Source: Bacillota bacterium
GTDB taxonomy: Bacteria; Bacillota; SHA-98; UBA4971
Length of the DNA stretch: 48,478 bases
Assembly: GCA_012516125.1 (NCBI GenBank)
Contig: JAAYXB010000015.1
Coordinates: 1-48,478 of the forward strand
Direction: 5' to 3'
How positions within the stretch are numbered: the first letter of the stretch is position 1; the number at the start of each line of letters is the position of its first letter. Positions 175 through 19,087 of this stretch are shown piece after piece. The position numbers and the translations under genes are program-made. Below the pieces are notes generated by a model. The model was not told the origin of the DNA. It did not search any database and saw only the letters and a list, made by a program, of their open reading frames with translations.

Positions 175-286
175 GCTGCGGACCCATTGGATTACTTTGA
201 AGGCCCAGGGGAGGAACATCGCCAGGTGCGTCGAATGATCACCTGAGCGATTTTGCGAAATCCCCATGCGTGAGGAGGCAAAGAAA

Positions 287-1246: not shown

Positions 1247-1250
1247 GCGG

Positions 1251-4591: not shown

Positions 4592-5929
4592 GTGAGCCAG
4601 AAGGAAGACCTTGTTGCCAGGGCGAAGAAGCCTGCAGAAGACGCCATCAGGTTTCACCCGTTCTACCGGGGGAAAATCGAGACGACTCCCAAATGCGAGA
4701 TCCGTGACTTTCAGGACTTCGCTGTGTGGTACTCACCCGGTGTCGCAGCTCCCTGCAAGGAGATCGCTCAGAACAGAGAACTCGTTTACTCGTACACGAA
4801 CAAGTGGAACACCGTTGCTGTGGTATCCGACGGCACGAGGGTGCTCGGGCTGGGCGACATCGGGCCTGAAGCCGGCCTGCCTGTGATGGAGGGCAAAGCC
4901 CTGCTCTTCAAGTACCTGGGCGGGGTGGACGCCTTTCCGATCTGTCTCGCCACCAAAGACCCGGACGAGATAATCGCTGCGGTGAAATGGATCCAGCCAT
5001 CTTTCGGCGGGGTGAACCTCGAGGACATTGAGCAGCCCAAGTGCTTCTACGTGCTCGAGCGGCTCCGCGAGGAGGCCGAGATCCCCGTCTGGCATGACGA
5101 CCAGCAGGGGACCGCGGCCGTCACGGTGGCGGGCCTCGTGAACGCCCTCAAGCTGGTGGGCAAGGACATCGACAAAGTGAACATCGCCATGATCGGTGCC
5201 GGCGCTGCCAACATCCGCACGGCATGGCTCATAGTCGCGGCAGGCGCCGACCCTGGCAAGATAGTCATGTGCGATACGAAGGGCACTCTCCATAAAGGGC
5301 GCACCGAGCTCGCGAAGACCCACAAGGAGAAATGGGAGCTTGCGCAGCGGACCAACGAGCGGGGCATCGACGGCCAGATCCCCGACGCCATGCGGGGAGC
5401 CGACGTCGTGATAGCGCTCTCGAAGCCCGGTCCCGACGTAATACACCCCGAGTGGGTGCGGTCGATGGCGAAGGACCCCATCGTGTTCGCGTGCGCGAAT
5501 CCTGTGCCCGAGATATGGCCGTGGGACGCCGCGGAGGCCGGAGCGGCTGTGGTGGCAACGGGCCGCTCAGACTTCCCGAACCAGGTCAACAACTCCCTCG
5601 GCTTCCCCGCGATCTTCAGGGGCACCCTCGACGTCAGGGCGAAGACCATCACCGACGAGATGTGCCTTGCCGCTGCTCTCGAGCTGGCAAGATGCGCCGA
5701 AGACAGGGGTCTCTCCCGCGATTACATCATCCCCACCATGGAGGAGTGGGAGGTGTACCCGAGGGAAGCCGCGGCCGTCGGCACTAAGGCCATACAGCAG
5801 GGAGTGGCACGGCTCACCCTGACGTGGGATGAGCTGTACAAGAACGCGGAGGCCATGATCGCCCGGTCGCGGGAGACCACCAGACTGCTCATGGAGAACG
5901 GGATCATACCAAGGGCACCCAGGGGTTGA
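4592..5929 (+). CDS. NAD(P)-dependent malic enzyme (malate dehydrogenase, decarboxylating)
   Basis: Catalyses malate + NAD(P)+ to pyruvate + CO2 + NAD(P)H in the cytoplasm. It has 445 residues, somewhat longer than the compact 390-residue bacterial form. Recognisable motifs are VWYSPGVAAPC (catalytic Tyr region), LLFKYLGGVDAFPI (catalytic Lys), HDDQQGTAAV (metal-binding acids), the Rossmann motif GAGAANIRTA, and ANPVPEIWP and TGRSDFPNQVNN near the end. The GTG at 4592 is only one base from AGGAGG, so start placement is uncertain by a few codons, but the conserved domain is complete. It stands between the uptake system and the Hdr block and would link C4 acids to pyruvate in either direction. 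Cofactor preference is not decided. Confidence 0.95.
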   Translation: MSQKEDLVARAKKPAEDAIRFHPFYRGKIETTPKCEIRDFQDFAVWYSPGVAAPCKEIAQNRELVYSYTNKWNTVAVVSDGTRVLGLGDIGPEAGLPVMEGKALLFKYLGGVDAFPICLATKDPDEIIAAVKWIQPSFGGVNLEDIEQPKCFYVLERLREEAEIPVWHDDQQGTAAVTVAGLVNALKLVGKDIDKVNIAMIGAGAANIRTAWLIVAAGADPGKIVMCDTKGTLHKGRTELAKTHKEKWELAQRTNERGIDGQIPDAMRGADVVIALSKPGPDVIHPEWVRSMAKDPIVFACANPVPEIWPWDAAEAGAAVVATGRSDFPNQVNNSLGFPAIFRGTLDVRAKTITDEMCLAAALELARCAEDRGLSRDYIIPTMEEWEVYPREAAAVGTKAIQQGVARLTLTWDELYKNAEAMIARSRETTRLLMENGIIPRAPRG

Positions 5930-6025
5930 GCGGGACGCGTTGGACCTTTGGCGTTCGTCGGTTGGGGCGATCCACGCAGATGATCCGCCCGGTCTCGGTC
6001 GGGTTTGGCGAGGGAGCGATCGATC

Positions 6026-6424
6026 TTGAGGCTCACGCGAGATGTGGTGAGCAGCGAGAATAGACGTAAACTGCTGGACATCAGCGGCCAGGAGGTCACG
6101 TCGTGTTACCAGTGTGGCAAGTGCTCCGCGGGGTGCGCGATGGCTGCGATGATGGACCTTCTCCCGCACCAGGTGATAAGGCTTGTCCAGCTTGGGCAGG
6201 TTGAGGAGGCGCTTGCGTCCCGCACAATTTGGCTGTGCGCATCGTGCCTTGCGTGCAGCGCGCGCTGTCCGAGAGGCGTGAGCCTGCCGAACGTCATGGA
6301 GTCGCTGCGGGTGACGCTGCTGCGCCCGGGCGGACGGCACCTGGACCCTGTGCGCCTCCCGGCAGACGTGCTCGAGAACGCGCCGGAGCAGGTGCTCGTA
6401 GCCGGGCTCCGGAAGTACACGTGA
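6026..6424 (+). CDS. hdrC: HdrC-like 4Fe-4S protein (heterodisulfide reductase subunit C)
   Basis: Electron carrier linking HdrA to HdrB. A protein of about 132 residues with two 4Fe-4S motifs: CYQCGKCSAGC near residue 30 and CASCLACSARCP near residue 70. Both have the CxxCxxCxxxC(P) pattern, the first with the HdrC-typical SAGC ending. No membrane segment is present, so this is the soluble HdrC type. TTG 6026 is preferred over TTG 6005 because AGGGAG (6011-6016) sits nine bases before it. The gene opens an hdrCBA run; hdrB follows after an 80-base gap. The partner disulfide or acceptor cannot be read from sequence. Confidence 0.87.
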   Translation: MRLTRDVVSSENRRKLLDISGQEVTSCYQCGKCSAGCAMAAMMDLLPHQVIRLVQLGQVEEALASRTIWLCASCLACSARCPRGVSLPNVMESLRVTLLRPGGRHLDPVRLPADVLENAPEQVLVAGLRKYT

Positions 6425-6504
6425 TTGTGTGAGGCTTTTTCGATCCGGACGAGGAGAAAGGGAGGAGGGTTACCGCAAGCCCGCCGCCGGACGGCGAGGG
6501 CGGC

Positions 6505-7401
6505 TTGCGGCCGAGCGAGATGGGTTACCCGTATTTCCCTGGATGCACGCTTCGGGCGAAGGCCAGGGGCTTTGAGTCGTCAGCCCTTGCCTCAGCGCGC
6601 GTCCTTGGTATCCACCTTGAGGAGCTTCCGAACTGGCAGTGCTGCGGGGCCACGTTTCCGCTGCAGGTGGATAACTCCTTTCCACTCGTATCCCCCGCCC
6701 GAACCCTCGCGTCGGCGAGGAAAATGGGCGAGCGACTCGTGACCTTGTGTTCAGCCTGCTATAACGTGCTCAAGCGTACGAACCACGTGATGCGCACCGA
6801 GGCCGACCGCCGGGACAAGGTGAACGCTTTTATTGAAGAGGGCTACAGGGGGGATCTCGAGGTCGTGCACTTTCTCGAGGTGCTCCGCGACGACCTCGGG
6901 TTCGACGCGCTTGCCCGGAGCGCAAAAGTGCCCCTGAGCGGCCTCGCCGCGGCCCCTTATTACGGGTGCCTGCTCCTGCGGCCCGCGGACGAGCTTGCGT
7001 TCGACGACCCGGAAGCCCCTCACATCCTGGAGGACTTCCTCTCGGCCCTGGGCTGCAGGGTGGTTGACCATCCCTACAAGATAGAGTGTTGCGGGAGCTA
7101 CGTGGCGCTCGAGCCCGGCGAACTTGCCTCGGGCCCGAGCAGGATGGTGGTGGAGTCGGCGAGGGCAAGGGGCGCCCAGGTCATCATCACAAGTTGCCCC
7201 TTGTGCCAGTACAACCTCGACGTATCACAGCAGGGCGCCTGCGGCCGTAACGGGGCCGGGGTCCCGGTCATCTATTTCACGCAGCTTCTCGCGATTGCCC
7301 TCGGTCTCCCAGAGGACGTTCTGGGCTTCGAGGGCCACGTGATCTCTCCCGGGCCGCTCCTGCGGTCCGTCGGGGCCATGGGAAGTGAGGCTACGGCATG
7401 A
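6505..7401 (+). CDS. hdrB: HdrB-like CCG-domain protein (heterodisulfide reductase subunit B)
   Basis: Catalytic subunit type of heterodisulfide reductase. It carries two CCG domains that in structurally known HdrB bind non-cubane 4Fe-4S clusters. The first set is C14 (FPGCTLR), CCG near residue 48 (QCCGATFP) and CSAC near residue 85. The second is YYGC near residue 155, ECCGSY near 195 and CPLC near 232. All cysteines expected for both clusters appear present. Length, about 298, is normal. The start is TTG 6505 or ATG 6520; GGCGAGGG upstream favours TTG. The stop codon overlaps the hdrA start in ATGA. Because a fumarate reductase flavoprotein lies downstream, this HdrB may act with it rather than on a methanogen-type heterodisulfide. 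Confidence 0.9.
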   Translation: MRPSEMGYPYFPGCTLRAKARGFESSALASARVLGIHLEELPNWQCCGATFPLQVDNSFPLVSPARTLASARKMGERLVTLCSACYNVLKRTNHVMRTEADRRDKVNAFIEEGYRGDLEVVHFLEVLRDDLGFDALARSAKVPLSGLAAAPYYGCLLLRPADELAFDDPEAPHILEDFLSALGCRVVDHPYKIECCGSYVALEPGELASGPSRMVVESARARGAQVIITSCPLCQYNLDVSQQGACGRNGAGVPVIYFTQLLAIALGLPEDVLGFEGHVISPGPLLRSVGAMGSEATA

Positions 7402-9344
7402 GGACAGGCGTGTTCGTGTGCTGGTGCGGCCTGAACATCGGCGGAGTCGTGGACGTGCCGAGGGTGGTTCAGGAGATCTCGGGCTACCCGGGAGTTGCCC
7501 GCGCCGTGGACTACCGATACATGTGCTCCGACCCCGGCCAGCAGCTCATCAAGGACACCATCAGGGAAGAGCGGCTCGACAGCGTGGTCATCGCCGCGTG
7601 CTCACCGGGCATGCACGAGGCCACGTTCCAGAGCGTCGCGGAGAGCGCCGGGGTGAACCCTTATAGGTGCGAGATCGCGAACATCCGCGAGCAATGCAGC
7701 TGGCCCCACCAGAACGAGCCTGGCGAGGCCACGAGGAAGGCCATAGAGCTCGTTCGGGCTGCCGTCGAGAAGGTTCGAGGCGATGAGGCGCTTTCGGCCC
7801 TGTCCATCTCCGTGACGAGGCGCGCTCTTGTCATAGGGGCGGGGATCGCCGGCATGCAGGCCGCCCTTGATATCGCCGAGGCCGGGCACGAAGTCGTGCT
7901 GGTGGAGCGTCTTCCGCACATCGGCGGGCACATGGCCCAGCTTTCGGAGACGTTCCCGACCCTTGACTGCTCGCAGTGTATCCTCACGCCGAAGACGTCG
8001 GAAGTCGGCAGGCACCCCCGGATCAGGCTGCTCACGAACAGCGAGGTTGAGTCGGTTTCGGGGTATGTGGGTAATTTCACGGTGAGGATCCGCAGGAGAG
8101 CAACTTATGTAAACTGGGACCTCTGCACCGGCTGTGGCCTGTGCACCGAGAAATGCCCATCGAAGACGCCGTCCGCTTTCGAGCGAGGTCTTGCGAAGGA
8201 GCCTGCTATAACCATCGCGTTCCCGCAGGCGGTCCCGCACAAGCCCGTGATTCGTGCCGAGGCGTGCAGGCACTTCACGAGTGGCAGGTGCGGGGTATGC
8301 GAGAAGGTATGCCCGGTCGGAGCCATCGACTTCGAGCAGCAAGACTTGGTGCTCGAAGAGAAGGTTGGCGCCATCGTGGTTGCCACAGGCTACGATCTTC
8401 ACCCCAAGGCAAAGGTGGGCGAGTACGGATACGGGGTCTATCCCGACGTCATCGACGGCCTCGAGTTCGAGCGCCTCAACTCAGCATCCGGCCCAACGCA
8501 GGGCGAGATAAGACGTCCGTCCGACGGGAAGGTGCCCAAAGAGGTCGTGTTCATCCAGTGCGTGGGGTCCCGCGACCAGGAGAATGGGTATCCCTATTGC
8601 TCCAAGATCTGCTGCATGTATACGGCCAAGCACGCCCGCCTGTACAAGCACAAGGTGCCTGACGGTCAGCCGTACGTGTTCTACATGGACGTCCGCGCGG
8701 GCGGCAAGGGCTACGAGGAGTTCGTGCAGCAAGCCACGGATGAGGGCGTGCTTTACCTCCGGGGAAGGGTTGCCAGGGTGTTCCAGGACGGCGACAAGCT
8801 CGTCGTATTCGGTGTGGATACCCTCTCCGGCAAGAAGGTGGAGATCCACGCCGACATGGTGGTCCTTGCCACAGCTGTCGTGCCTGCGAGCGGCGCGAAA
8901 GAGCTTGCACGGGCCCTCAAGATGGCTACCGACCAGTACGGGTTCTTCTCCGAGGCCCATCCCAAGCTGCGTCCGGTGGAGAGTCTGACACGCGGGATCT
9001 ATATCGCCGGCTGCGCGCAGGCGCCGAAGGACATCCCCGACACGGTGACGCAAGCGGGGTCCGCAGCGGCGAAAGTGCTGGCCCTCTTCTCGGCCGAGCG
9101 CCTCTCTCACTCGCCGACGGTGGCTGCCGTAGACGAGGAGCTGTGCAGCGGGTGCGGAGTCTGTGTGGAGGCTTGCGCCTACGACGCCCGCACGCTCGAT
9201 GTGAGGCGGCGTGTGGCGGTGGTGAACGACGTCCTGTGCGAGGGGTGCGGCGCATGCGCCGTGGCGTGCCCGAACGGCGCCACGCGTCAGAAGAACATGG
9301 CAAGGTCCCAGGTGCTGTCGATGATCGACGCGGTGGTGGGGTAG
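7398..9344 (+). CDS. hdrA: HdrA, flavin-bifurcating iron-sulfur flavoprotein
   Basis: Central FAD protein of Hdr complexes, which in characterised examples splits electron pairs between a high- and a low-potential acceptor. It has 648 residues, full length. The N-terminal domain (VFVCWCG, then IREQCSWPH near residue 95) precedes the FAD-binding GAGIAGMQAALDIAEAGHE near residue 142. Next come the Cys motif LDCSQCILTPK near 192 and inserted ferredoxin motifs CTGCGLCTEKCP (about 240) and CGVCEKVCPVGAI (about 299). Two C-terminal 4Fe-4S motifs follow, CSGCGVCVEACAYDA and CEGCGACAVACPNGA. No in-frame UGA suggests selenocysteine. It is translationally coupled to hdrB. Confidence 0.95.
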   Translation: MRTGVFVCWCGLNIGGVVDVPRVVQEISGYPGVARAVDYRYMCSDPGQQLIKDTIREERLDSVVIAACSPGMHEATFQSVAESAGVNPYRCEIANIREQCSWPHQNEPGEATRKAIELVRAAVEKVRGDEALSALSISVTRRALVIGAGIAGMQAALDIAEAGHEVVLVERLPHIGGHMAQLSETFPTLDCSQCILTPKTSEVGRHPRIRLLTNSEVESVSGYVGNFTVRIRRRATYVNWDLCTGCGLCTEKCPSKTPSAFERGLAKEPAITIAFPQAVPHKPVIRAEACRHFTSGRCGVCEKVCPVGAIDFEQQDLVLEEKVGAIVVATGYDLHPKAKVGEYGYGVYPDVIDGLEFERLNSASGPTQGEIRRPSDGKVPKEVVFIQCVGSRDQENGYPYCSKICCMYTAKHARLYKHKVPDGQPYVFYMDVRAGGKGYEEFVQQATDEGVLYLRGRVARVFQDGDKLVVFGVDTLSGKKVEIHADMVVLATAVVPASGAKELARALKMATDQYGFFSEAHPKLRPVESLTRGIYIAGCAQAPKDIPDTVTQAGSAAAKVLALFSAERLSHSPTVAAVDEELCSGCGVCVEACAYDARTLDVRRRVAVVNDVLCEGCGACAVACPNGATRQKNMARSQVLSMIDAVVG

Positions 9345-9553
9345 GCTGAGCATGCGCAGGGGCATGCGCAGGAGCCAGGGGCTTTTCCGCGTTACTGCGG
9401 GGAGGATGGCCGCAGATTTCTGATCTCTGGCTTCGGTCCTCCGCTGCGGAACGGCGGGGCCGGATTCGCCGAACGGGGCAGCCGTCGTAGATTCGGCGAA
9501 AGCCGTGACGGCGATGGCGATCTAGCCAAGCGATCAAGTGAAAGTGATAAGGT
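9345..9553 (+). other. Short intergenic segment with hairpins between two hdrA genes
   Basis: This 209-base gap breaks an otherwise tight operon. It contains a direct repeat CATGCGCAGG at 9351-9360 and 9363-9372 and an inverted repeat TTCGCCGAA / TTCGGCGAA around 9466-9500. No convincing gene or T-run terminator is seen. It may be a processing or attenuation site, or a scar of gene duplication. Confidence 0.4.
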
Positions 9554-12500
9554 GTGAGCCTGACAATGGTGCCTGAAGCGCATTTGAAAAGGTCCGTGCT
9601 GGTCGCAGGCGGCGGCGTGGCCGGGATGCACGCTTCGCTTATCCTGGCCCACGCAGGCGTGCAGGTGTACCTGGTGGATTCGTCCCCCACAGTGGGCGGG
9701 CTGTGGAGCCTCCTTGACAAGACCTTCCCGACCCACAGCTGCGGGGTTTGCCACATGTCTCCGAGGAATCCGGCTTACTGTCCGGTGCTCGAGATCGAGA
9801 GACACCCCCGCATCGCGCTCATGGTGAATAGCAGCGTGACGGAGGTCTCCGGCGACATCGGCGACTTTCGCGTGCGCGTCACAACTCGCCCCGAGTTCGT
9901 GAGACGCGACCTCTGCGATGGCTGCGGCGAGTGTGAGAAAGTTTGTCCTGTTGAAGTAAGCGTGCCCTCTTACCTTGGGTTGGGCGGCCGCAGGGCGATC
10001 TACAGGCCTGGCCACCGCGCCGTGCCCGGCGGGTTTGTCCTGGACGAGGCGGCGTGCACGAGGTGCGGGAAGTGCGCCGAAGCCTGCCCGAGGGGTGCCA
10101 TAGACCTCCTCGCCGAAGACACGCGGACGGATCTCGAGGTAGGAGCCATCATTGTGTGCCCCGGGATGACCATGTGCGACCCCCGCGTGCGCCCTGAATA
10201 CTCGTACGATCCTTCGAAGAACGTCATCACCGGCCTCGAATTCGAAAGGATCGTGAGCGCTTCGGGTCCGACCGGGGGGCGGCTTCTCCGCCCAGGAGAC
10301 GGTGCGAGACCCGGCAGAATCGCGTTCATCCAGTGCGTCGGCTCGCGCGATAGGTCCAGAGCAAACCCGTACTGCTCCTCGGTTTGCTGCATGTACGCCA
10401 TCAAGGAGGCTATCATCGCGAAGACGCTTGTGCCCGACGCACGGGTCAAGGTCTTCTACATGGACGTGAGAGCCCTCGGAAAGGGCTACGAGGAATATTA
10501 CGCGCGCGCGAAATCCCTGGGCGTTGAGTTTGAGAGCTGCAGGGTATCGGGGATCGAGGAGAGGGACGGCGCTCTCGAGGTGTGCGCCGAGTCGGGTGGC
10601 ACGGTGAGGCGCAAGGGCTTCGACCTTGTAGTGCTCTCAAATGGCTTTGCGCCCAGCAGAAACCTTGGGGCGCTCAGTGTTGCGCTCGGCGTCGAGCGGG
10701 ACGAGTTCGGGTTCATAAAGCTGCTTTCTCAGGGACGGTCGCGGGTGAAGACCTCCCGTCCCGGTATCTACGTATGTGGCGGAGCCTCGGGGCCGCAGGA
10801 CATCCCCACCGCGATCATGTGGTCGGGGGCGTGTGCGCTCCAGGCGCTCCGGGCGGTGGGCCCGGAGGCGGACGGGGATGAATGGCCCGCGCTTCAGGTA
10901 GACGCGGGAGGATCCGCCGCCCAGCCGCACGAGCACGAGGATGTTGCTCGGGGGTCTTCGGCTGCGTTTTCGGGGCCGGCACCGACGCCGGCACCGAGAC
11001 CGACACCGACACCGGCACCGGCAGCCGGGCAAGAGGAGCCGAGGATCGGGGTGTTCGTATGCAGGTGTGAATCATCCATGGGCAGTCTTGATCCTGCCGC
11101 CCTTGCCGAGGCTGTATGCGCGAAGACCATGGACGACGTGGTTATCGTAGGGGAAGTCCCCGCCATGTGCAGGCGGGAAGGCCTTGTGGCCCTCGCCCGG
11201 GAGGTGGCATCCTACAGAATCAACCGCGTGGTTGCCGCCGCGTGCTCGCCCAGGGACGTCCAGGGCCTCATCGAGGCGGGGCTATCGCAGGTCGGCGTGG
11301 CACGCGGGATGCTCGAGATCGCGAACGTGCGTGAGCAGTGCGGCTGGGTCCACGACGATCCTATGGAGGCCACGCGAAAGGCCTGCGACCTTGTGGCGAT
11401 GGCCGTCGCGGGCGTCCGTCTCGCGAGGCCGCTTGCGGAGCACGCGAGGGCCATTCCGGCGGGGGCGGTGGTCATCGGCGGAGGCCCGGCCGGGATGGAG
11501 GCCGCAGCTTCCCTTGCCGACCTCGGCCACGACGTCCACCTCGTGGAAAGGGACGGCGTCCTCGGGGGCAGGGCGCGGTATCTCGCCCGCACGCTCGATG
11601 GGACGGACGTTCACGAGGTCCTGAGGAAGCTCGAGGAGCGCGTCCGCAGAGACAGCCACATCACCATCCATACCTCATCGCGTGTCGCATCTGTCAGCAG
11701 GAAGGACGGGGGCTTCCGCCTCTCCATCGTCCGCGACCATAGCGGCGCTGATCACAGCGGCGCTGACGGCTCCCCAGGCGATCCTGGGCCGGCCTGCGGT
11801 GGCGGTGAGAGGGTGGAGATCGACTGCGGAGCGGTGGTCGTGGCGACAGGTGGAGTTGAGGCGTCCGGTCCCGCGTACCTTGCGTCGCCGGATGGGGTGC
11901 GTATTCTGACCCAGACGGAGCTTGAGGCGCGCCTTTGGCCGTCGTGCGATATCCCCGCGGGCGTGCAAAACGTGGTCATGATACAATGCGCCGGATCGCG
12001 CGACGAGGCAAGGCCTTACTGCAGTCAGGTCTGCTGCTCCCATGCCATCAAGAACGCCATCAGGCTGAAGGCCGAGCGCCCGGATATCGAGGTTTACGTG
12101 CTGCACCACGACATTCGCGTGCCTGGGTTATCCGAGGTCTTCTACGAGCGGGCGCGCGAGATGGGCGTGGTGTTTGTGAGGCACCCTGACAACGCCCGGC
12201 CCAGGGTGGTTGAGGATGACCACAGCCTGGGCGGCGGGAGGCTCGCGGTCGAGGTCCGCGACGAGGTCCTCGGAGAAACCATCGTTGTTCCGGCGGACCT
12301 CGTGGTACTGTCCACAGGGGCGGAGGGCGCCGCCGACCGCGAGCTTGCGATGGCTCTCGGGGTGCCCGTTGACAACCACGGCTTCTTCACCGAGGCCAAC
12401 GCGAAGGTCCAGCCTACGGACTTTCTCGCGCCGGGAGTCTACGTTTGCGGGCTTGCGAGGGCGCCGGGGTTCCTGACGGATGCGCTCATCTCGGCGCAGG

Positions 12501-12784
12501 CCGCCGCGGCGCGCGCGGGCGTGTATCTTGCCGCAAAGGAAGCGCGCGCCACTACGAACGTCTCTTACGTCCGCGCAAGGCGTTGCGCGGGCTGCGGCGT
12601 CTGCGTGGACGTGTGTTCCTACGGCGCGCGGTCCATTGACGAGGAGACGAAGCTGGCGGTCGTGGACGAATACCTTTGTCGGGGCTGCGGGGCATGTCAG
12701 GCGGCGTGTCCCTCGGGCGCGGCCTCGCATGCCGGGTTCGAGCCGGAGCGCATTACGTCCGCGCTGGATGTGGCGCTCGGGTGA
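9554..12784 (+). CDS. Tandem HdrA-HdrA fusion flavoprotein
   Basis: A 1076-residue protein made of two HdrA-like halves joined by a Pro/Thr/Ala linker (about residues 475-495). The N-half (1-470) starts directly at the FAD motif GGGVAGMHASL. It keeps a Cys motif (HSCGVCHMSPRNPAYC) and two inserted ferredoxin motifs (CDGCGECEKVCP, CTRCGKCAEACP), but lacks the usual HdrA N-terminal domain and C-terminal ferredoxin. The C-half has that N-terminal domain (IGVFVCRCE, VREQCGWVH), FAD motif GGGPAGMEAAASL near 641, and C-terminal ferredoxins CAGCGVCVDVCSYGA and CRGCGACQAACPSGA. It lacks the inserted ferredoxin and the LDCSQC-type cysteines. The halves are thus complementary. Two flavins in one chain beside a separate HdrA suggest an extended electron-splitting or relay unit. 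The GTG 9554 start has a weak upstream AAGGTG. Confidence 0.93.
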   Translation: MSLTMVPEAHLKRSVLVAGGGVAGMHASLILAHAGVQVYLVDSSPTVGGLWSLLDKTFPTHSCGVCHMSPRNPAYCPVLEIERHPRIALMVNSSVTEVSGDIGDFRVRVTTRPEFVRRDLCDGCGECEKVCPVEVSVPSYLGLGGRRAIYRPGHRAVPGGFVLDEAACTRCGKCAEACPRGAIDLLAEDTRTDLEVGAIIVCPGMTMCDPRVRPEYSYDPSKNVITGLEFERIVSASGPTGGRLLRPGDGARPGRIAFIQCVGSRDRSRANPYCSSVCCMYAIKEAIIAKTLVPDARVKVFYMDVRALGKGYEEYYARAKSLGVEFESCRVSGIEERDGALEVCAESGGTVRRKGFDLVVLSNGFAPSRNLGALSVALGVERDEFGFIKLLSQGRSRVKTSRPGIYVCGGASGPQDIPTAIMWSGACALQALRAVGPEADGDEWPALQVDAGGSAAQPHEHEDVARGSSAAFSGPAPTPAPRPTPTPAPAAGQEEPRIGVFVCRCESSMGSLDPAALAEAVCAKTMDDVVIVGEVPAMCRREGLVALAREVASYRINRVVAAACSPRDVQGLIEAGLSQVGVARGMLEIANVREQCGWVHDDPMEATRKACDLVAMAVAGVRLARPLAEHARAIPAGAVVIGGGPAGMEAAASLADLGHDVHLVERDGVLGGRARYLARTLDGTDVHEVLRKLEERVRRDSHITIHTSSRVASVSRKDGGFRLSIVRDHSGADHSGADGSPGDPGPACGGGERVEIDCGAVVVATGGVEASGPAYLASPDGVRILTQTELEARLWPSCDIPAGVQNVVMIQCAGSRDEARPYCSQVCCSHAIKNAIRLKAERPDIEVYVLHHDIRVPGLSEVFYERAREMGVVFVRHPDNARPRVVEDDHSLGGGRLAVEVRDEVLGETIVVPADLVVLSTGAEGAADRELAMALGVPVDNHGFFTEANAKVQPTDFLAPGVYVCGLARAPGFLTDALISAQAAAARAGVYLAAKEARATTNVSYVRARRCAGCGVCVDVCSYGARSIDEETKLAVVDEYLCRGCGACQAACPSGAASHAGFEPERITSALDVALG

Positions 12785-12822
12785 TCCGGCGCCGCTGATG
12801 CGCCGAGGAAAGGGGAGCGGTT

Positions 12823-13254
12823 ATGGGATCTGGCGAAGAGTTCGAACCGAAGATCGTCGCGTTCCTGTGCAACTGGTGCACTTACACAGGCGCGGACCTC
12901 GCAGGGGTGTCGAGGATACAGTACCCGCCGAACGTGCGGCCCATTCGAGTCATGTGCTCGGGATCGGTTGACCCGATGTATATCCTGAAGGCGCTCCTGG
13001 ACGGCGCCGACGGCGTCCTCGTTGGCGGGTGCCATCCCGGCGACTGCCACTACGTGAGCGGGAACTACAAGGCCAGGCGGCGCCTGGCGGTTCTCTCGGC
13101 GATCCTGGACGAGTTCGGGATCGATAGCCGCCGGGTCTGGTTCAGCTTCATCAGCGCAAGCGAGGGCGCGCTCTTCGCAAAGACCGTGGGCGATATGACG
13201 GCCGCCTTGAAGGCGCTCGGGCCCAATCCCGCACGGGCGCTGTGGATCGCGTAG
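12823..13254 (+). CDS. mvhD: MvhD-like [2Fe-2S] electron-transfer protein
   Basis: A small iron-sulfur protein that in methanogens links a hydrogenase or formate dehydrogenase to HdrA. It has 143 residues. The cysteine set FLCNWC, RVMCSG and GGCHPGDCHY matches the MvhD family. The start ATG 12823 is preceded by AGGAAAGGGGAG. It lies 38 bases after the HdrA fusion. No NiFe hydrogenase genes are in the window, so the upstream electron donor here is unknown. The following FrhB/FdhB-like protein is the nearest candidate partner. Confidence 0.92.
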   Translation: MGSGEEFEPKIVAFLCNWCTYTGADLAGVSRIQYPPNVRPIRVMCSGSVDPMYILKALLDGADGVLVGGCHPGDCHYVSGNYKARRRLAVLSAILDEFGIDSRRVWFSFISASEGALFAKTVGDMTAALKALGPNPARALWIA

Positions 13255-13289
13255 CGCAGCCCTGACATGTGCAGCATCGAGGTGTGGCC

Positions 13290-14372
13290 ATGAAAGACCT
13301 TCTGATCGCGGTGGGACAAGAGGGGAAAGAGAAGGCGCTATCGAGGTTCCTCGCGAGGCTGCTGGAGACCGGGGCCGTAGACGGGCTTGTGGTCGCGGCC
13401 GAGGCGGCGCCGGGCGTGATAACGCACGTTCTCGCGAAAGACCCGCGCCTCGTGGAGCGGGCCGCCCGGCCGCTTGCGCCCGTCATGCCCTCGAGCGCGG
13501 CGCAGGTGGTGTCGGAGGTGGTGCGCAGGCGGCCTTCGGGCAAGGTTGCGGCGGTCCTCCGGCCGTGCGAGGGCCGGGCCCTCGTCGAGCTCATGAAGCT
13601 GAAGCAGGCGGCGCCCGAGAACGTCGTCGCCATCGGCATCGACTGCGCGGGCACGTACGACCCTGTGGCCTATAGAGATGCAGGCGGGAACGCCGACGGC
13701 CTCGAGCCGAGGGAGGCGTGTCGCGTGTGCCTGAACCCGGCTCCGCTCGAGGACGCGCTACCCGGCATCACGCTTGGGTTCATCGGGCTGGACGATTCTG
13801 AGGGCATCTTCGTGTCCGTTCATGACCGGCTCGACCCGGCTGTGGCCGCGGTGGTGGACGAACTCGGCCTCGCAAGCGGCGAGGGTGCCGGGCGAAAGCG
13901 TAGCAAAGCCGTGCAGGCGCTTGTCCAGGAACGGCAAGGGGCCTACGACGCTTTCCTCAGTATTGCCGGCATCTCCGGCATCGAGGCCTTCGCGCGAGAG
14001 CTTGCGGCGTGCACAGGTTGCCACAACTGCCGCGTTGCGTGTCCGGTATGCTACTGCAAGGAGTGCGTCTTCGACACCGATACGTTTGAGTATGAGACAG
14101 GCCAGTTCCTGCGGAAGGCGGGGAGGAAGGGGGCGCTCAAGATGCCCTCTGAGACGGTCCTCTACCACCTTACCAGGATGAACCACATGTCACTTTCGTG
14201 CGTGGGGTGCGGACAGTGCGAGCAGGCTTGCCCCGCCGACCTGCCGCTCTTCCGGCTGTTCGCGATGGCTTCCAGGCGCACGCAGGAGATCTTCGGGTAC
14301 GTTCCTGGCAGGAGCCTGGCCGAGGAACTGCCTTTCACGACGTTCAGGGAGCAGGAGCTTGAGCCCAGGTAG
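13290..14372 (+). CDS. FrhB/FdhB-like 4Fe-4S protein (coenzyme F420 hydrogenase/formate dehydrogenase beta type)
   Basis: Likely an electron input or relay subunit for the Hdr complex. It has about 360 residues. The N-terminal half resembles the FrhB/FdhB nucleotide/flavin domain (VLRPCEGRALVELMKLKQ, VVAIGIDCAGTYD). The C-terminal half has two 4Fe-4S motifs, CTGCHNCRVACPVCYCKEC and CVGCGQCEQACPAD. ATG 13290 is chosen because GAGGTG (13279-13284) precedes it; the in-frame ATG 13269 has no good site. In related clusters such proteins feed electrons from formate, F420H2 or NAD(P)H into HdrA-MvhD. No catalytic formate dehydrogenase is here. No obvious NADH motif is seen, so the donor is open. Confidence 0.85.
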   Translation: MKDLLIAVGQEGKEKALSRFLARLLETGAVDGLVVAAEAAPGVITHVLAKDPRLVERAARPLAPVMPSSAAQVVSEVVRRRPSGKVAAVLRPCEGRALVELMKLKQAAPENVVAIGIDCAGTYDPVAYRDAGGNADGLEPREACRVCLNPAPLEDALPGITLGFIGLDDSEGIFVSVHDRLDPAVAAVVDELGLASGEGAGRKRSKAVQALVQERQGAYDAFLSIAGISGIEAFARELAACTGCHNCRVACPVCYCKECVFDTDTFEYETGQFLRKAGRKGALKMPSETVLYHLTRMNHMSLSCVGCGQCEQACPADLPLFRLFAMASRRTQEIFGYVPGRSLAEELPFTTFREQELEPR

Positions 14373-14404
14373 CCCCGGGGCGGCACTGGCAGGAGGTGAT
14401 CCGC

Positions 14405-15085
14405 ATGGCACAGGAGATGGTCAGGGTTTTCATCATGGGGAAGGCGTACGAGGTGCCGAAGGGGCTCACCATCATGAAAGCGATGGAGTACGCCGGCTAC
14501 CAGTTCATCCGCGGCTGCGGGTGTCGCGGGGGCTTTTGCGGCGCGTGCGGCACTGTGTACCGCATGCCCGGCGACTACAGGGTAAAGGTCGGCCTTGCCT
14601 GCCAGACGATAGTCGAGGACGGGATGTATCTCACCCAGATACCTGTTTTCCCGGCGAACAAGGCCACCTACAACATCGAGGAGATGCGCCCGACCCTGGG
14701 TGATCTCGTGAAAATGTACCCCGAGCTTTCAAGGTGCCTCGGCTGTAACACCTGTACGAAGGTCTGCCCGCAGGAGCTGGACGTCATGAACTACATGGCA
14801 GCGGCCATGCGGGGCGACATCGCGCGCACGGCTGACATGTCCTTCGATTGCCTGATGTGCGGCCTGTGCGCGGCCCGCTGTCCGGCGGAAACTGTGCAGT
14901 ACAACATTGCGATCCTCGCCCGAAGGCTGTACGCGAGGCATATCGCGCCGAGGGCGCAGCACCTTGCCACCAGAGTCCAGGAGATCCTCGACGGCAAGTT
15001 CGACCAGCCCCTCGACGAAATGACCAGGCTGGACCGGGCCGAGCTCGAAAGGCTTTACAACGAGCGCGACATCGAGCCGGAGTAG
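14405..15085 (+). CDS. Fumarate reductase/succinate dehydrogenase-like iron-sulfur subunit
   Basis: Electron-transfer subunit of about 226 residues. The N-terminal plant-type [2Fe-2S] domain has CGCRGGFCGAC near residue 40 and the fourth cysteine in GLACQT. The C-terminal domain has two 4Fe-4S motifs, CLGCNTCTKVCP and CLMCGLCAARCP. This is the SdhB/FrdB layout, with tandem CxxCxxCxxxCP motifs instead of the usual [3Fe-4S] site. The ATG 14405 is set by a near-perfect AGGAGGTGAT at 14391-14400. The flavoprotein gene follows after 15 bases. No cytochrome b or membrane anchor gene is nearby, so the enzyme should be soluble and may pass electrons to HdrB/HdrC. It resembles a split version of thiol:fumarate reductase subunit B. 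Confidence 0.88.
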   Translation: MAQEMVRVFIMGKAYEVPKGLTIMKAMEYAGYQFIRGCGCRGGFCGACGTVYRMPGDYRVKVGLACQTIVEDGMYLTQIPVFPANKATYNIEEMRPTLGDLVKMYPELSRCLGCNTCTKVCPQELDVMNYMAAAMRGDIARTADMSFDCLMCGLCAARCPAETVQYNIAILARRLYARHIAPRAQHLATRVQEILDGKFDQPLDEMTRLDRAELERLYNERDIEPE

Positions 15086-15100
15086 GAGGGATAGATAGAG

Positions 15101-16732
15101 GTGGCTTACACTCCGCAGATGATAGAGTCGATCCGCCTCGTTGAAGCATCGCGAGAGAGGCGATACACGGAGAAGCACCCGAGGCTGAGCCCCGCGGAGA
15201 AGCAGGACCTTCTCCGGAGGTTCCACCCGGACTTCCGTCCGGACACCATGCGCCCGGTGAAGGTGGGGCCGTCGCGCGGATCGATGATGCCCCATGAGCT
15301 CGTGGACATCCTCGAGGCCAGGAGCAGGCTGGACCCGGACACCTTTCCCCTCGACAGGATCGACTACGATGTGGACGTGCTGGTGGTGGGGGGCGGCGGG
15401 GCCGGGTCGTCGGCGTCGCTGATGGCCCACGCTGCGGGCGCGAACGTCCTTCAGGTCACCAAGCTCAGGCTGGGCGATGCAAACACCATGATGGCCCAGG
15501 GCGGCATCCAGGCGGCCGACAAGCCCAACGACTCCCCGATGATCCATTACCTCGATGTCATCGGTGGCGGCGGGTTCGTGAACAAGCCCGACCTCGTGAG
15601 GGCGCTTGTCCATGATGCGCCTCTCGTGATAAAGTGGCTGGAGGACCTCGGGTGCATGTTCGACAAAGAGCCCGACGGCACCATGATCACCCAGCACGGG
15701 GGCGGCACGTCGCGGAAGCGCATGCATGCCGCGCGCGATTACTCCGGGGCTGAGATCATGCGCACGCTCCGGGACGAGGTGCGGAACAGGCAGATCCCTG
15801 TCATCGAATTCTCGCCCGCAGTGGAGCTTCTGTCCGATGGCGAGGGGCGGTGCACGGGGGCTGTTCTTATGAACCTCGAGACGAAAGACTTTTTCGTTGT
15901 GCGGGCGAAGACCGTCATCCTGGCGACAGGCGGGTTCGGAAGGCTTCACGTCGCGAGGTTCCCGACTACGAACCACTACGGCGCCACCGCAGACGGCCTT
16001 GTCATGGCTTACCGTATCGGAGCAAACCTCATCTTCCTCGACGCGACGCAGTTCCACCCGACGGGCGCCGCGTACCCCGAGCAGATCGTCGGCCTTCTCA
16101 TCACCGAGAAGGTTCGCGGCCTGGGCGCACAGCTTGTGAATGTCCACGGTGAGCAGTTCGTATTCCCGCTCGAGACCAGAGATGCCGTCTCCAGCGCCAT
16201 CCTGCGCGAGTGCCATGAGCGGGGTACGGGCGTGATCACCGAGACGGGACAGCACGGGGTGTGGCTCGACTCGCCCATGATAGAGCACATCCACGGCGAG
16301 GGCACGATCCAGAGGGCGCTTCCGGCCATGTTCCGCCAGTATAAGCGCTTCGGGATCGACATGCGGAAGGAGCCGATCCTGGTGTACCCGACGCTCCACT
16401 ACCAGAACGGCGGCGTGGAGATATCGGACGACACGAGCACCTGCATCGAGAACCTGTTCGTGGCCGGGGAGACCTCCGGGGGTGTTCACGGGCGCAACCG
16501 TCTCATGGGGAACTCCCTCCTCGACGTGGTGGTCTTCGGCAGGCGGGCGGGGGTGGCTGCGGCCGAGCGGGCTCGGAGCGTGAAGCCCGGGAGGCTCACG
16601 CTCGAGCACGTGAGGCGCTATCACAAGGAGCTTGACGAAGCGGGCATCGGGATGGGCAGGGTGTCGCCGATGATTCTGCCGTCCTACGCCCGTCACGAAG
16701 CGAGGCCCGGCGCCAACTCTGTGGTATTATAG
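15101..16732 (+). CDS. Fumarate reductase/succinate dehydrogenase-type flavoprotein
   Basis: FAD-containing catalytic subunit, 543 residues. The FAD motif GGGGAGSSASL is near residue 93, MAQGGIQAA near 130, and the substrate-site stretches HPTGAAYPE, KVRGLGAQLVN (catalytic Arg region) and HYQNGGVEI (active-site His) follow in order. The C-terminal FAD contact is GRNRLMGNSLLDVVVFG. Two features are unusual: an N-terminal extension of about 85 residues before the Rossmann fold, and an early end that removes most of the helical C-terminal domain. GTG 15101 is preceded by AGGAGGG at ten bases. The residues support fumarate/succinate chemistry, but related flavoproteins use other substrates, so specificity is inferred. 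Confidence 0.88.
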   Translation: MAYTPQMIESIRLVEASRERRYTEKHPRLSPAEKQDLLRRFHPDFRPDTMRPVKVGPSRGSMMPHELVDILEARSRLDPDTFPLDRIDYDVDVLVVGGGGAGSSASLMAHAAGANVLQVTKLRLGDANTMMAQGGIQAADKPNDSPMIHYLDVIGGGGFVNKPDLVRALVHDAPLVIKWLEDLGCMFDKEPDGTMITQHGGGTSRKRMHAARDYSGAEIMRTLRDEVRNRQIPVIEFSPAVELLSDGEGRCTGAVLMNLETKDFFVVRAKTVILATGGFGRLHVARFPTTNHYGATADGLVMAYRIGANLIFLDATQFHPTGAAYPEQIVGLLITEKVRGLGAQLVNVHGEQFVFPLETRDAVSSAILRECHERGTGVITETGQHGVWLDSPMIEHIHGEGTIQRALPAMFRQYKRFGIDMRKEPILVYPTLHYQNGGVEISDDTSTCIENLFVAGETSGGVHGRNRLMGNSLLDVVVFGRRAGVAAAERARSVKPGRLTLEHVRRYHKELDEAGIGMGRVSPMILPSYARHEARPGANSVVL

Positions 16733-16831
16733 TGTGGCGGGAAAGACCTGCGGGCCGGGGAACTGCAAAGTCGTCCGAATCGCTCTTGGAGCACAAAACC
16801 TGCGCATCGCGCAAAGAGGGGGCGGGTGAGG

Positions 16832-17116
16832 ATGCCTGGAAGCATTGAGGCGGGGCCGGCGGTTGAGGGCCGGCCGGCGGAGGTCCCGGTGGAGATCAAC
16901 CAGAAATGGTGCAAGGGGTGCGACATCTGCGTCGCCTTCTGTCCGAAAGAGGTCCTCGCAAGACCCGAGGGGGGGAAGGCGCAGGTTGCGCACCCCGAAA
17001 AGTGTACACGATGCGGGCTTTGTGAGATCATGTGTCCTGACCTGGCGATCGTGGTAGTACCGGCGGCCCGCAAGGGGACCTCTTCCCGGGGGCAGGGAGG
17101 TGCTGCTGATGCTTAG
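16832..17116 (+). CDS. korD: 2-oxoacid:ferredoxin oxidoreductase delta subunit (ferredoxin)
   Basis: Two-cluster ferredoxin subunit of the 2-oxoglutarate synthase complex, about 94 residues. It has motifs CKGCDICVAFCPKEVL and CTRCGLCEIMCPD, each CxxCxxCxxxCP. ATG 16832 is chosen over GTG 16826 because AGAGGGGG (16815-16822) precedes it by nine bases. Its stop overlaps the korA start by eight bases. The gene order delta-alpha-beta-gamma is common for this enzyme. Confidence 0.93.
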   Translation: MPGSIEAGPAVEGRPAEVPVEINQKWCKGCDICVAFCPKEVLARPEGGKAQVAHPEKCTRCGLCEIMCPDLAIVVVPAARKGTSSRGQGGAADA

Positions 17117-18245
17117 CAAGGCCGGCACGAGGCTCATGCAGGGAAACGAGGCTTGCGCGGAAGGCGCTATAGCTGCGGGCCTGCGATTCTTCGCAGGCTA
17201 CCCCATAACGCCCTCCACCGAGATAGCGGAGGAGCTTGCGCTCCTCCTTCCGAAGGTCGGCGGGAAGTTCATCCAGATGGAGGATGAGATCGCCAGCATA
17301 TCCGCGATCATAGGGGCATCGCTTGCGGGGGCGAAGTCCATGACCGCCACGAGCGGGCCAGGGTTCTCGCTGAAGCAGGAGGGGATCGGGTTCGCTTCGT
17401 ATACTGAGGTGCCGTGCGTTATCGTGAACGTCCAGCGGGTGGGACCGAGCACCGGTGTGCCGACGGCGCCTGCGCAGGGTGATGTGATGCAGGCGCGCTG
17501 GGGGACCCACGGCGACCACCCCATTATCGTCCTCTGTCCGTCCTCGGTCGCGGAGACGTTCACGCTCATAATCGAGGCGTTCAACATCTCAGAGCGCTGG
17601 CGGATACCGGTGATCTTCCTCATGGACGAGGTCGTTGCCCACATGCGCGAGAAGGTCGTGGTGCCGGATGTAAGCCAGATCAAACTGGTTGAGCGGCCGC
17701 GGCCTCAAGTGGCCCCGGACCAGTATCTGCCTTACGCTGCGGGCGAAGACCTTGTGCCCCCCATGGCCGACTTCGGCTCGGGATACCGCTATCATGTCAC
17801 GGGGCTTACGCACGACCAGACAGGGTTCCCCACCACAAAGGCCCCCGAGGTGGGTGCTCTCGCCCGGCGCCTGGACGCCAAGATGAAAAGGGCGGCGCCG
17901 CACGTCACGTTCGTGGATGAGCTTCTTGTGGACGATGCTGAGGTTGCGATCTTCGCATACGGCGTAACGGCAAGGGCGGCAGCGAAGGCTGTCCGCGACG
18001 CGCGGGCGCAGGGTCTCAAGGCGGGGCTCATAAAAGCGAAGACGCTCTGGCCGTTCCCCAGCGAGCACGTGCGCAGGGTGGCCGAGCGGGCGCGCGCCAT
18101 AGTCGTCCCGGAGATGAACATGGGGCAGCTCGTGCTGGAAGTCGAAAGGGCCTCCGCGGGCCGGGCGAAGGTCGCGGGCCTTTCGCGGGTGGATGCGGAG
18201 CCCATCACGCCGGATGAGATCCTGGCAAGACTGCGGGAGGTGTGA
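17109..18245 (+). CDS. korA: 2-oxoacid:ferredoxin oxidoreductase alpha subunit
   Basis: Alpha subunit of the thiamine-diphosphate enzyme that interconverts 2-oxoglutarate and succinyl-CoA + CO2 with ferredoxin. It has about 378 residues. The N-terminus QGNEACAEGAIAAGLRFFAG with YPITPSTEI is the family signature. TSGPGFSLKQEGIGFA and VQRVGPSTGVPT follow, and the C-terminal half is the transketolase C-like domain (KTLWPFPSEHV). ATG 17109 is preceded by GGGAGGTG. Succinyl-CoA synthetase immediately downstream supports 2-oxoglutarate as substrate rather than pyruvate or branched oxoacids. Confidence 0.95.
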   Translation: MLSKAGTRLMQGNEACAEGAIAAGLRFFAGYPITPSTEIAEELALLLPKVGGKFIQMEDEIASISAIIGASLAGAKSMTATSGPGFSLKQEGIGFASYTEVPCVIVNVQRVGPSTGVPTAPAQGDVMQARWGTHGDHPIIVLCPSSVAETFTLIIEAFNISERWRIPVIFLMDEVVAHMREKVVVPDVSQIKLVERPRPQVAPDQYLPYAAGEDLVPPMADFGSGYRYHVTGLTHDQTGFPTTKAPEVGALARRLDAKMKRAAPHVTFVDELLVDDAEVAIFAYGVTARAAAKAVRDARAQGLKAGLIKAKTLWPFPSEHVRRVAERARAIVVPEMNMGQLVLEVERASAGRAKVAGLSRVDAEPITPDEILARLREV

Positions 18246-18253
18246 CGAGAGCG

Positions 18254-19087
18254 ATGGCGATGCCTGTAACTCACTACCTGCGGACGAGCAAGATGCCTCA
18301 CATATGGTGCGCAGGGTGCGGGCATGGGATAGTGCTTGGCGCCGTGCTGCGGGCCATAGACTCGCTGGGCCTCGATAAGGACGAGGTGTGCGTGGTCTCG
18401 GGGATAGGGTGCGCCTCGCGGGCACCGGGTTATCTCGACTTCAACACGCTCCATACAACCCACGGCAGGGCCATCGCCTTTGCCACCGGGATCAAGATGG
18501 CGAAACCCGAGCTGAAAGTGATCGTGCTCACCGGGGACGGTGACGCCGCCGCGATAGGCGGGAACCATCTCATACACGCGGCGCGCCGCAACATCGGCAT
18601 CACCACCGTGTGCTTCAACAACAGCATCTACGGGATGACGAGCGGCCAGTACTCTCCCATGACCCCGACGGGAAGTTTAGCGAGCACGGCGCCGTATGGG
18701 AATATCGAGGAGCCCTTCGACCTGTGCGACCTGGTTTACGCGGCCGGGGCGAGCTACGTTGCCCGCGGTACCGCTTATCACGCTCTGCTCCTGTCAAAGC
18801 TCATCGCAAAGGCCATAGCCACCGAAGGGTTCTCGTTCGTGGAGGCCATCACGCAGTGCCCGACTTACTACGGAAGGCGCAACAACATGAGGTCCGCCGT
18901 GGACATGCTGAAGTGGCAGAAGGAGCACGCCGTGCCCGTGGCTGCCGCGGCGAAAATGTCCGCGGAGGAACTCGTGGGCAAGTTCAGGATAGGCGAGCTT
19001 GGCACGAGGACCAGGCCCGAGTATACCCGGCGGTACGCTGCTGTCATTGAGACGGCGCAGAAAGAGGAGGCTGAGCAGGATGCGTAA
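18254..19087 (+). CDS. korB: 2-oxoacid:ferredoxin oxidoreductase beta subunit
   Basis: Thiamine diphosphate-binding subunit, about 277 residues. It has WCAGCGHGIVLGA near residue 18 and IGCASRAPGYLDFNTLHTTH, typical of 2-oxoglutarate/2-oxoacid beta subunits. The TPP/Mg motif GDGDAAAIGGNH lies near residue 95, with NNSIYGMTSGQYSP after it. ATG 18254 is chosen since GGGAGGTG (18236-18243) precedes it by ten bases. The end overlaps korC by eight bases, consistent with coupled translation of complex subunits. Confidence 0.95.
   Translation: MAMPVTHYLRTSKMPHIWCAGCGHGIVLGAVLRAIDSLGLDKDEVCVVSGIGCASRAPGYLDFNTLHTTHGRAIAFATGIKMAKPELKVIVLTGDGDAAAIGGNHLIHAARRNIGITTVCFNNSIYGMTSGQYSPMTPTGSLASTAPYGNIEEPFDLCDLVYAAGASYVARGTAYHALLLSKLIAKAIATEGFSFVEAITQCPTYYGRRNNMRSAVDMLKWQKEHAVPVAAAAKMSAEELVGKFRIGELGTRTRPEYTRRYAAVIETAQKEEAEQDA

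Follow-up and report, generated by a model that had tools for sequence, protein, structure and literature searches.

Genes for a predicted soluble, Hdr-linked fumarate reductase with an FdhB-family electron inlet in a Bacillota bacterium

A Flx-Hdr fumarate reductase encoded by the "succinate operon" of Pseudoclostridium thermosuccinogenes has been proposed to be electron bifurcating, according to the part of PMC7282089 that was available, and the same part cites a 2019 preprint by Koendjbiharie and van Kranenburg for the idea; on the strength of these excerpts, an Hdr-linked fumarate reductase that bifurcates is already a published idea and not a new one. In the Elp-Hdr structure, as presented in the available part of PMC12350162, F420H2 donates a hydride to the flavin adenine dinucleotide (FAD) of ElpB, and electrons pass via clusters to the 2Fe-2S center of an MvhD homologue and continue from there to the bifurcating FAD. 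Fused and tandem HdrA proteins of anaerobic methanotrophic (ANME) archaea and Moorella have complementary halves, one with Cys197 and one with the N-terminal domain (excerpts of PMC9012536). Here, a combination of Hdr and fumarate reductase (Frd) genes is described from a window of 48,478 bp (the whole stretch of DNA analyzed), which is one entire contig (JAAYXB010000015.1) of a 3.24-Mb draft Bacillota genome (GCA_012516125.1; 98.5% complete, 4.15% contaminated).

Eight consecutive plus-strand genes at positions 6005 to 16732 encode, in order, HdrC, HdrB, HdrA, an HdrA-HdrA fusion, MvhD, an FdhB-like arm, FrdB, and FrdA, with intergenic gaps of -4 to 209 bp. An earlier note on this DNA had claimed these eight genes; all are present, and their family identities were borne out (the HdrC frame opens with TTG at 6005, and the 6026 of that note lies in the same frame). 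The note had the genes right and the unit too short: KorD-A-B-C and SucC-D follow FrdA (16826 to 21642), and a malic enzyme gene lies upstream. Junctions overlap from KorD-KorA onward, with the starts of KorC and SucC assigned by hand during the analysis. With slightly better than even confidence, the locus is read here as encoding a cytosolic, quinone-independent fumarate reductase driven by Hdr-type flavin-based electron bifurcation. The linkage of Frd and Hdr genes is real and well supported, and bifurcation is likely. The genes of the unit are as follows.

6005 to 6424, plus strand: HdrC-like protein with two 4Fe-4S motifs (family match and motifs).
6505 to 7401, plus strand: HdrB-like protein with both CCG (noncubane cluster) motifs; its SdhE score (180 bits) is slightly above its HdrB score (154 bits), both below the cutoff.
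7398 to 9344, plus strand: HdrA of the full four-domain type, 648 aa, aligned to solved HdrA across its entire length (E = 3e-199), with its cysteines.
9554 to 12784, plus strand: HdrA-HdrA fusion; half 1 has a Cys197 equivalent and an inserted ferredoxin, and half 2 has an N-terminal domain and C-terminal ferredoxins.
12823 to 13254, plus strand: MvhD (FlpD; PF02662, E = 5e-53).
13269 to 14372, plus strand: input arm of the FdhB/ElpB/FlxC family with Fe-S motifs (matched to FdhB/ElpB chains of the PDB by sequence and by fold).
14396 to 15085, plus strand: FrdB-like protein, 229 aa, with one 2Fe-2S and two 4Fe-4S motifs and with neither a CCG motif nor an HdrB domain (family match and motifs).
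15101 to 16732, plus strand: FrdA-like flavoprotein (FAD_binding_2) with an N-terminal extension, no PF02910 match, a noncovalent-FAD signature, and conserved catalytic residues.
16826 to 19628, plus strand: KorD, KorA, KorB, and KorC, 2-oxoacid:ferredoxin oxidoreductase (KorA above the PRK08659 cutoff; the others family matches below cutoff).
19595 to 21642, plus strand: SucC and SucD, succinyl-CoA synthetase (PRK00696 and PRK05678, both above cutoff; SucC start assigned by hand).

The named Hdr, TfrA, and FrdA models were matched, all below their curated cutoffs; KorA, SucC, SucD, and the TAXI and fused-permease genes of an upstream transporter scored above theirs. Motifs and comparison with solved structures both show HdrA, HdrB, MvhD, and the FdhB-like arm to be intact. 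Half 1 of the HdrA-HdrA fusion is without N-terminal or C-terminal cluster domains and half 2 is without Cys197 and the inserted ferredoxin, an arrangement predicted to form a pseudo-heterodimeric HdrA. HdrA and the fusion together hold three motifs for FAD binding and two inserted ferredoxin domains. HdrA fusions of approximately 1,490 to 1,560 aa, compared with 1,076 aa in the window, were seen at or near five other Frd loci (L115, L128, L165, L074, and L102), of which L102 is without an FdhB-type arm.

The flavoprotein was compared with 22 aligned members of its clade, using residue numbers and roles that we take to be those of Escherichia coli FrdA. The equivalents of H232, E245, R248, R287, H355, and R390 were invariant (22/22), and that of T244 was kept in 21 of 22; all of the substrate-binding and proton-shuttle residues of a fumarate reductase flavoprotein were matched in the FrdA of the window. 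The position of His44, to which FAD is covalently bound, is Asn in 22/22. E. coli FrdA with noncovalent FAD still reduces fumarate but no longer oxidizes succinate; the fumarate-reducing direction is therefore favored by the predicted noncovalent FAD. An N-terminal extension of approximately 85 residues (window positions 15101 to 15364) is present in the 22 clade members and is left uncovered by most of the matches to solved relatives; none of the listed structure matches starts before profile position 74. PF02910, the C-terminal domain, gave no match. The predicted FrdA model (mean predicted local distance difference test [pLDDT] score, 74.7) matched the FrdA/SdhA core loosely (template modeling [TM] score, ~0.56), and no details were drawn from it. 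L-Aspartate oxidase was rejected as a better name for the protein on the basis of the FrdB partner and of the identity gap between the clade (at least 56%) and the remaining listed hits (at most 43%). Selenocysteine in the FrdA of one clade locus (L074) was also rejected, as the TGA is the terminal stop. The host genome encodes two more FrdA/TfrA-like flavoproteins without Hdr neighbors: one (L026, 14719 to 16557, plus strand) near PreA-like, cis-3-hydroxyproline dehydratase-like, and TAXI-TRAP genes and another (L027, 7917 to 9755, minus strand) beside sugar ABC transporter genes.

No membrane anchor gene had been seen in the earlier reading of the sequence, and this holds: none of the Hdr and Frd subunits of the operon has clustered membrane helices, and a search of the genome returned no Sdh_cyt anchor. 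A membrane quinol:fumarate reductase (complex II) was rejected on the missing anchor and the Asn at the His44 position in 22/22. UbiA-family proteins are present in the genome, and the absence of quinones is therefore not demonstrable.

The association of FrdA with Hdr genes was recorded at 110 loci, three of them duplicates. An FlxA NADH head was present at 48, and an FdhB-type arm (at least 35% identity, a threshold between FdhB-type and FlxC-type arms that was set after viewing the distribution) was present at 23, of which 19 also had HdrA-HdrA and the other 4 had short upstream flanks. Seven loci had HdrB/HdrC only, 7 had other HdrA arrangements, and 25 had no Hdr gene (13 of these with less than 8 kb on one side). 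FlxA did not occur together with an FdhB-type (at least 35%) or HdrA-HdrA inlet at any of the 110 loci. Among the 51 distinct loci whose flanks reached 8 kb or more in both directions, Hdr-type genes (HdrA, HdrB, HdrC, MvhD, or an FdhB/FlxC arm) were found near FrdA orthologues at 39, compared with 3 of 22 FrdA paralogue loci (20 picked from the phylum hit list plus the 2 of the host genome; Fisher value, 8.6e-7, which overstates independence since the loci are related). Frd-like and Hdr genes thus co-occur elsewhere, a point on which the earlier note had made its proposal depend, and the linkage was seen across phyla. Weak HdrC-like hits (33 to 34%) near two loci classed as without Hdr (L081 and L086) failed a stricter test.

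Co-regulation of FrdBA with Hdr genes that do not join it in a single complex, the Hdr proteins reducing some other disulfide or acceptor, would account for the 12 of 51 well-flanked FrdA-clade loci that are without Hdr-type genes and for the 7 of 110 at which HdrB/HdrC alone are linked. This reading is regarded as highly unlikely: three or more gene orders place Hdr genes next to FrdBA, both inlet types are found at such loci, and the top-scoring model for HdrB is SdhE, a protein that resembles HdrB and pairs with FrdAB in 8-methylmenaquinol:fumarate reductase. What stands of the earlier proposal of an Hdr-linked soluble fumarate reductase is the genetic linkage between an Hdr core and a soluble pair of FrdA and FrdB, as seen in synteny, linkage, catalytic residues, and cofactor motifs; we infer that the products form one complex.

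In an FrdA tree (quick method, Shimodaira-Hasegawa-like approximate likelihood ratio test [SH-aLRT] support only), a Bacillota clade of 23 rows (support, 99) contained 12 FdhB-type, 6 HdrBC-only, and 3 Flx-type loci. At least two switches between the two inlets are required by the tree, and the inlet therefore looks exchangeable. The seven loci with HdrC and HdrB beside FrdBA and no HdrA seen (L076, L078, L079, L080, L097, L098, and L104) look like a minimal enzyme of the thiol:fumarate reductase type; six are ordered HdrC-HdrB-FrdB-FrdA, L104 (a short contig) has HdrB-HdrC downstream, and three have a TAXI-TRAP transporter within 9.5 kb. At seven other loci (L084, L088, L089, L108, L117, L120, and L159), from Syntrophomonadaceae, Dethiobacter, and relatives, a malic enzyme gene directly precedes FrdBA, with no Hdr gene in the available sequence (L120 is a short contig).

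The same gene order, for which the earlier note had suggested a search in other genomes, was found in 12 of the 13 family genomes searched, which cover both genera; the HdrC-to-FrdA block is complete in 9 and runs up to a contig end in 3, and an assembly artifact was rejected on this basis. In the remaining genome (G006), neither the HdrA-HdrA protein nor FrdA has an orthologue. Subunits are 48 to 86% identical between the two genera, with FrdB (83 to 86%), MvhD (80 to 82%), and FrdA (79 to 81%) the best conserved of the Hdr and Frd subunits and the FdhB-like arm (53 to 56%) and HdrA-HdrA (48 to 53% over most of its length) the least. A search of 398 phylum genomes, scoring at most 3 candidates per genome, gave 40 FrdA hits in 39 genomes at 56 to 100% identity and near full length; the other listed hits were at most 43% identical. 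Among named genomes, the best 80 of 584 FrdA relatives (58 to 98% identity) came mainly from Chloroflexota and from Clostridia, among them Blautia, Dorea, and further gut lineages; Desulfofundulus and Ammonifex were also represented, and a few were metagenome bins, possibly misbinned, labeled archaeal, Atribacteria, Cloacimonadota, Fibrobacterota, Treponema, and Desulfovibrio.

The presumed electron inlet, the 367-aa arm, gave sequence matches (E = 2e-20 to 4e-28) to the FdhB and ElpB chains of Hdr complexes from methanogens, and its predicted model (mean pLDDT, 84.2) matched chains 7bkb_E and 8rvu_E (TM, 0.75). FrhB was next by E value (TM, 0.46), and the other fold matches included the Pyrococcus furiosus SHI B chain (TM, 0.55) and the chlorophyll reductase HCAR. 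Of the former label, "FrhB/FdhB-like," the second half is upheld, as FdhB/ElpB, by sequence and fold; the first half is not, with no FrhB Pfam model reached. Eleven C-terminal cysteines plus C100, C126, C151, and C154 are invariant in 26/26 family members. The FlxC-type arm of L130, a Flx locus, hits these solved FdhB chains too, and FlxC-type arms are 22 to 27% identical to the arm of the window.

Candidate donors to this arm were considered in turn. CofH, of F420 synthesis, was above cutoff in 0/20 carrier genomes, the host genome included (eight of them reached via loci, with completeness not given), and was above cutoff in 3/14 in the search control; weak CofH matches in 9/20 carrier genomes reached at best 60 of 374 bits, and the best in the host genome is HydE. 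F420H2 was rejected as donor on the 0/20 result, and F420 is very unlikely to be the hydride partner here. H2 through MvhAG was likewise rejected, as no NiFe hydrogenase was found in the genome. HydE scored above its cutoff in the host genome and is not linked to the operon; an FeFe hydrogenase, unlinked to the operon, is likely on that evidence. Formate oxidation by a cognate FdhA is unlikely, as the only Fdh-alpha found is of a NuoG/NuoE-fused type, outside the operon and near RnfC. On that contig (L186, C26, 419 to 6580), Fdh-alpha fused to NuoG-like and NuoE-like domains is followed by a MobA-like protein, FdhD, and RnfC. No FlxA/FlxB head was found by tblastn in syntenic loci. A second Hdr supercluster of the host (L025, C48, 906 to 17849) contains an HdrA-type protein with MvhD, MetV, MetF, GcvH, HdrC, HdrB, HdrA, MvhD, HdrA-HdrA, MvhD, an FlxC-type arm, and FlxB- and FlxA-type proteins, and it resembles the MetVF-Hdr cluster reported for Moorella, plus an internal gene for glycine-cleavage H protein. 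The FlxAB of this cluster could in principle serve both Hdr complexes. The proposal that NADH, formate, or H2 feeds the enzyme is thus partly tenable: no NiFe hydrogenase was found, the operon has no FlxA-type head, Fdh-alpha lies elsewhere, and the likely FeFe hydrogenase is unlinked.

A chain without bifurcation, in which the Hdr/FdhB arm would simply take electrons from ferredoxin (supplied by Kor or another source) and pass them on in a straight line to fumarate, wasting energy, would be consistent with the fold match to HCAR, which is ferredoxin dependent, with an operon that has no NADH head, and with a host in which F420 synthesis and NiFe hydrogenase were not found. With three motifs for FAD binding and two inserted ferredoxin domains, HdrA and HdrA-HdrA exceed the needs of such a chain, which we consider quite unlikely.

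In the favored reading, bifurcating fumarate reduction, electrons at approximately the NAD(P)H potential would enter via the FdhB-family arm, MvhD, and the flavins of HdrA and HdrA-HdrA. One branch would deliver electrons to ferredoxin by way of an inserted ferredoxin domain. The second would pass them from HdrC to the noncubane clusters in HdrB, then to FrdB, and finally to the FAD in FrdA, where fumarate would be reduced to succinate. SucCD would then form succinyl-CoA, and KorDABC, whose substrate is probably 2-oxoglutarate judging from its best models and the presence of SucCD, would use the newly reduced ferredoxin to carboxylate succinyl-CoA to 2-oxoglutarate; each fumarate would yield two reduced ferredoxins, and each 2-oxoglutarate would consume two. 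Alternatively, an Rnf complex could reoxidize the ferredoxin and conserve energy, in which case the enzyme would serve fumarate disposal. With standard potentials, 2 NADH + fumarate + 2 oxidized ferredoxin yields -33 to -49 kJ per fumarate, and the reverse reaction, even with electrons at the 2-oxoglutarate level, costs approximately 30 kJ. Fumarase (C43) and RnfC (C26) were found in the host genome, and canonical citrate synthase was not (Re-citrate synthase was not searched for, and an oxidative cycle may therefore exist); these findings would suit either a reductive branch (fumarate to succinate, succinyl-CoA, and 2-oxoglutarate) or fumarate disposal with Rnf. Fumarate reduction is favored over succinate oxidation on the basis of the noncovalent-FAD signature, the standard potentials, and the failure to find canonical citrate synthase.

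Run backward, the enzyme would be a succinate dehydrogenase that confurcates electrons from succinate and from Kor-derived reduced ferredoxin to NAD(P)+ or another mid-potential carrier. The co-operonic Kor and SucCD would supply one succinate and two reduced ferredoxins per 2-oxoglutarate, and Hdr complexes are reversible in principle. This direction is judged unlikely, given its cost of approximately +30 kJ under standard conditions, an FAD that is predicted to be noncovalent in 22/22, and a genome in which no canonical citrate synthase, and hence no standard oxidative cycle, was found.

Several observations weigh against bifurcating fumarate reduction. FrdA reaches no cutoff of a fumarate reductase or TfrA model (best, TfrA at 349 of 718 bits), and its solved relatives include L-aspartate oxidase, which matches the same profile almost equally well; for these reasons, we infer the substrate (fumarate/succinate) from residues and context. 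The 12 of 51 well-flanked clade loci without an Hdr-type gene suggest that FrdBA can work without Hdr. In the available part of PMC12350162, the FdhB and ElpB arms work with formate dehydrogenase or F420H2, neither of which suits this case. The operon is without an NADH-binding head, with no FlxA-type (PF00175) or Fer4_22-dominated FlxB-type protein among the Hdr and Frd genes. Kor and SucCD are equally suited to 2-oxoglutarate oxidation.

The surroundings of the unit include two upstream features.

4592 to 5929, plus strand: malic enzyme (PF00390/PF03949), 75 bp upstream of the operon; at this position in genus g1 and not in the genus g2 loci seen.
266 to 3799, plus strand: TAXI-family TRAP transporter, comprising a solute-binding protein, a 187-aa open reading frame without a family match in the small-subunit position, and a fused permease (TIGR02122 and TIGR02123 above cutoff; syntenic in relatives).

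Farther along the window (24352 to 48077), most genes concern carbohydrates, and nothing evident ties them to the operon. This region encodes a mycosin-like subtilase, a DUF362 ferredoxin protein, glycogen synthase, tRNA-Pro, and maltokinase-like, N-acetylmuramoyl-L-alanine amidase-like, Asp/Glu racemase-like, RNase PH-like, 5'-nucleotidase-like, GH1 beta-glucosidase-like, GH57/glucodextranase-like, and CBM48/AMPK1-CBM proteins.

If the favored reading is correct, organisms that have no membrane fumarate reductase can power Hdr bifurcation with fumarate, which thereby joins heterodisulfide as a high-potential acceptor. Orthologues of FrdA (at least 58% identity among the best 80 of 584) extend to Chloroflexota, a Desulfofundulus, Lachnospiraceae and further Clostridia of the gut, and possibly archaea; given this spread, the energy accounting of succinate production in gut and sediment habitats could change. 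With two mutually exclusive inlets, the Hdr core looks like a plug-in platform, which raises the question of what substrate the FdhB-type arm oxidizes in the absence of F420. A more ambitious proposal, which we hold to be doubtful, is a self-balancing module of the reductive tricarboxylic acid (TCA) cycle, in which the bifurcating fumarate reductase with its F420-independent FdhB-type inlet would supply exactly two reduced ferredoxins for the co-operonic Kor, perhaps by direct handover in one supercomplex, so that mid-potential electrons would carry fumarate to 2-oxoglutarate without quinones or ion pumping.

An FdhB/HdrA-HdrA inlet in F420-less bacteria, its exclusion of FlxAB, and coupling to Kor/SucCD were not met in the literature covered, mostly at title level and with most subscription journals and all bioRxiv preprints outside its scope, and an Hdr-linked fumarate reductase is not described in the available parts of PMC6046458, PMC10579422, PMC10439189, and PMC8691401. 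Hydrogenobacter thermophilus FrdABCDE is a soluble, NADH-dependent, multi-subunit fumarate reductase in a reductive TCA context, and the enzyme predicted here would resemble it in being soluble and multi-subunit and in that context, as far as this description goes. Like the thiol:fumarate reductase TfrAB of methanogens, the predicted enzyme has an FrdA-type flavoprotein and a noncubane-cluster subunit and is soluble; unlike TfrAB, it has a separate HdrB, an FrdB without an HdrB half, and HdrA and MvhD, and its FrdA falls well short of the TfrA cutoff (349 versus 718 bits). It shares HdrABC, MvhD, and an FdhB/ElpB-type arm, with cluster motifs kept, with the Fdh-Hdr and Elp-Hdr complexes of methanogens (7bkb and 8rvu), whereas FrdBA replaces the heterodisulfide chemistry, the operon has no FdhA or ElpA, and F420 synthesis was not found in the host. 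The HdrA-HdrA fusion resembles heterodimeric HdrA (ANME HdrA3/4 and Moorella MetFV-Hdr, in the available part of PMC9012536) in its complementary Cys197 and N-terminal domain; its halves are in reversed order relative to ANME HdrA3/4, and, unlike the ANME and Moorella systems, it is accompanied by a separate complete HdrA and has FrdBA as partner.

A close likeness is to the Flx-Hdr-Frd type, judged on the Flx loci found here rather than on P. thermosuccinogenes sequences, in which HdrA, HdrB, HdrC, and MvhD also stand together with FrdBA of the same clade. Loci of gut Clostridia carry HdrB, HdrC, HdrA, MvhD, FlxAB, FrdB, and FrdA, the last being 59 to 64% identical to that of the window. The operon of the window is without the FlxA/FlxB NADH head, in place of which stand the HdrA-HdrA fusion and the FdhB/ElpB-type arm, and it is tied to Kor, SucCD, malic enzyme, and TRAP genes, whereas the Flx type of P. 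thermosuccinogenes is tied to fumarase. What differs here, as predicted from sequence, is the inlet, a fused HdrA plus an FdhB/ElpB-type arm replacing FlxAB.

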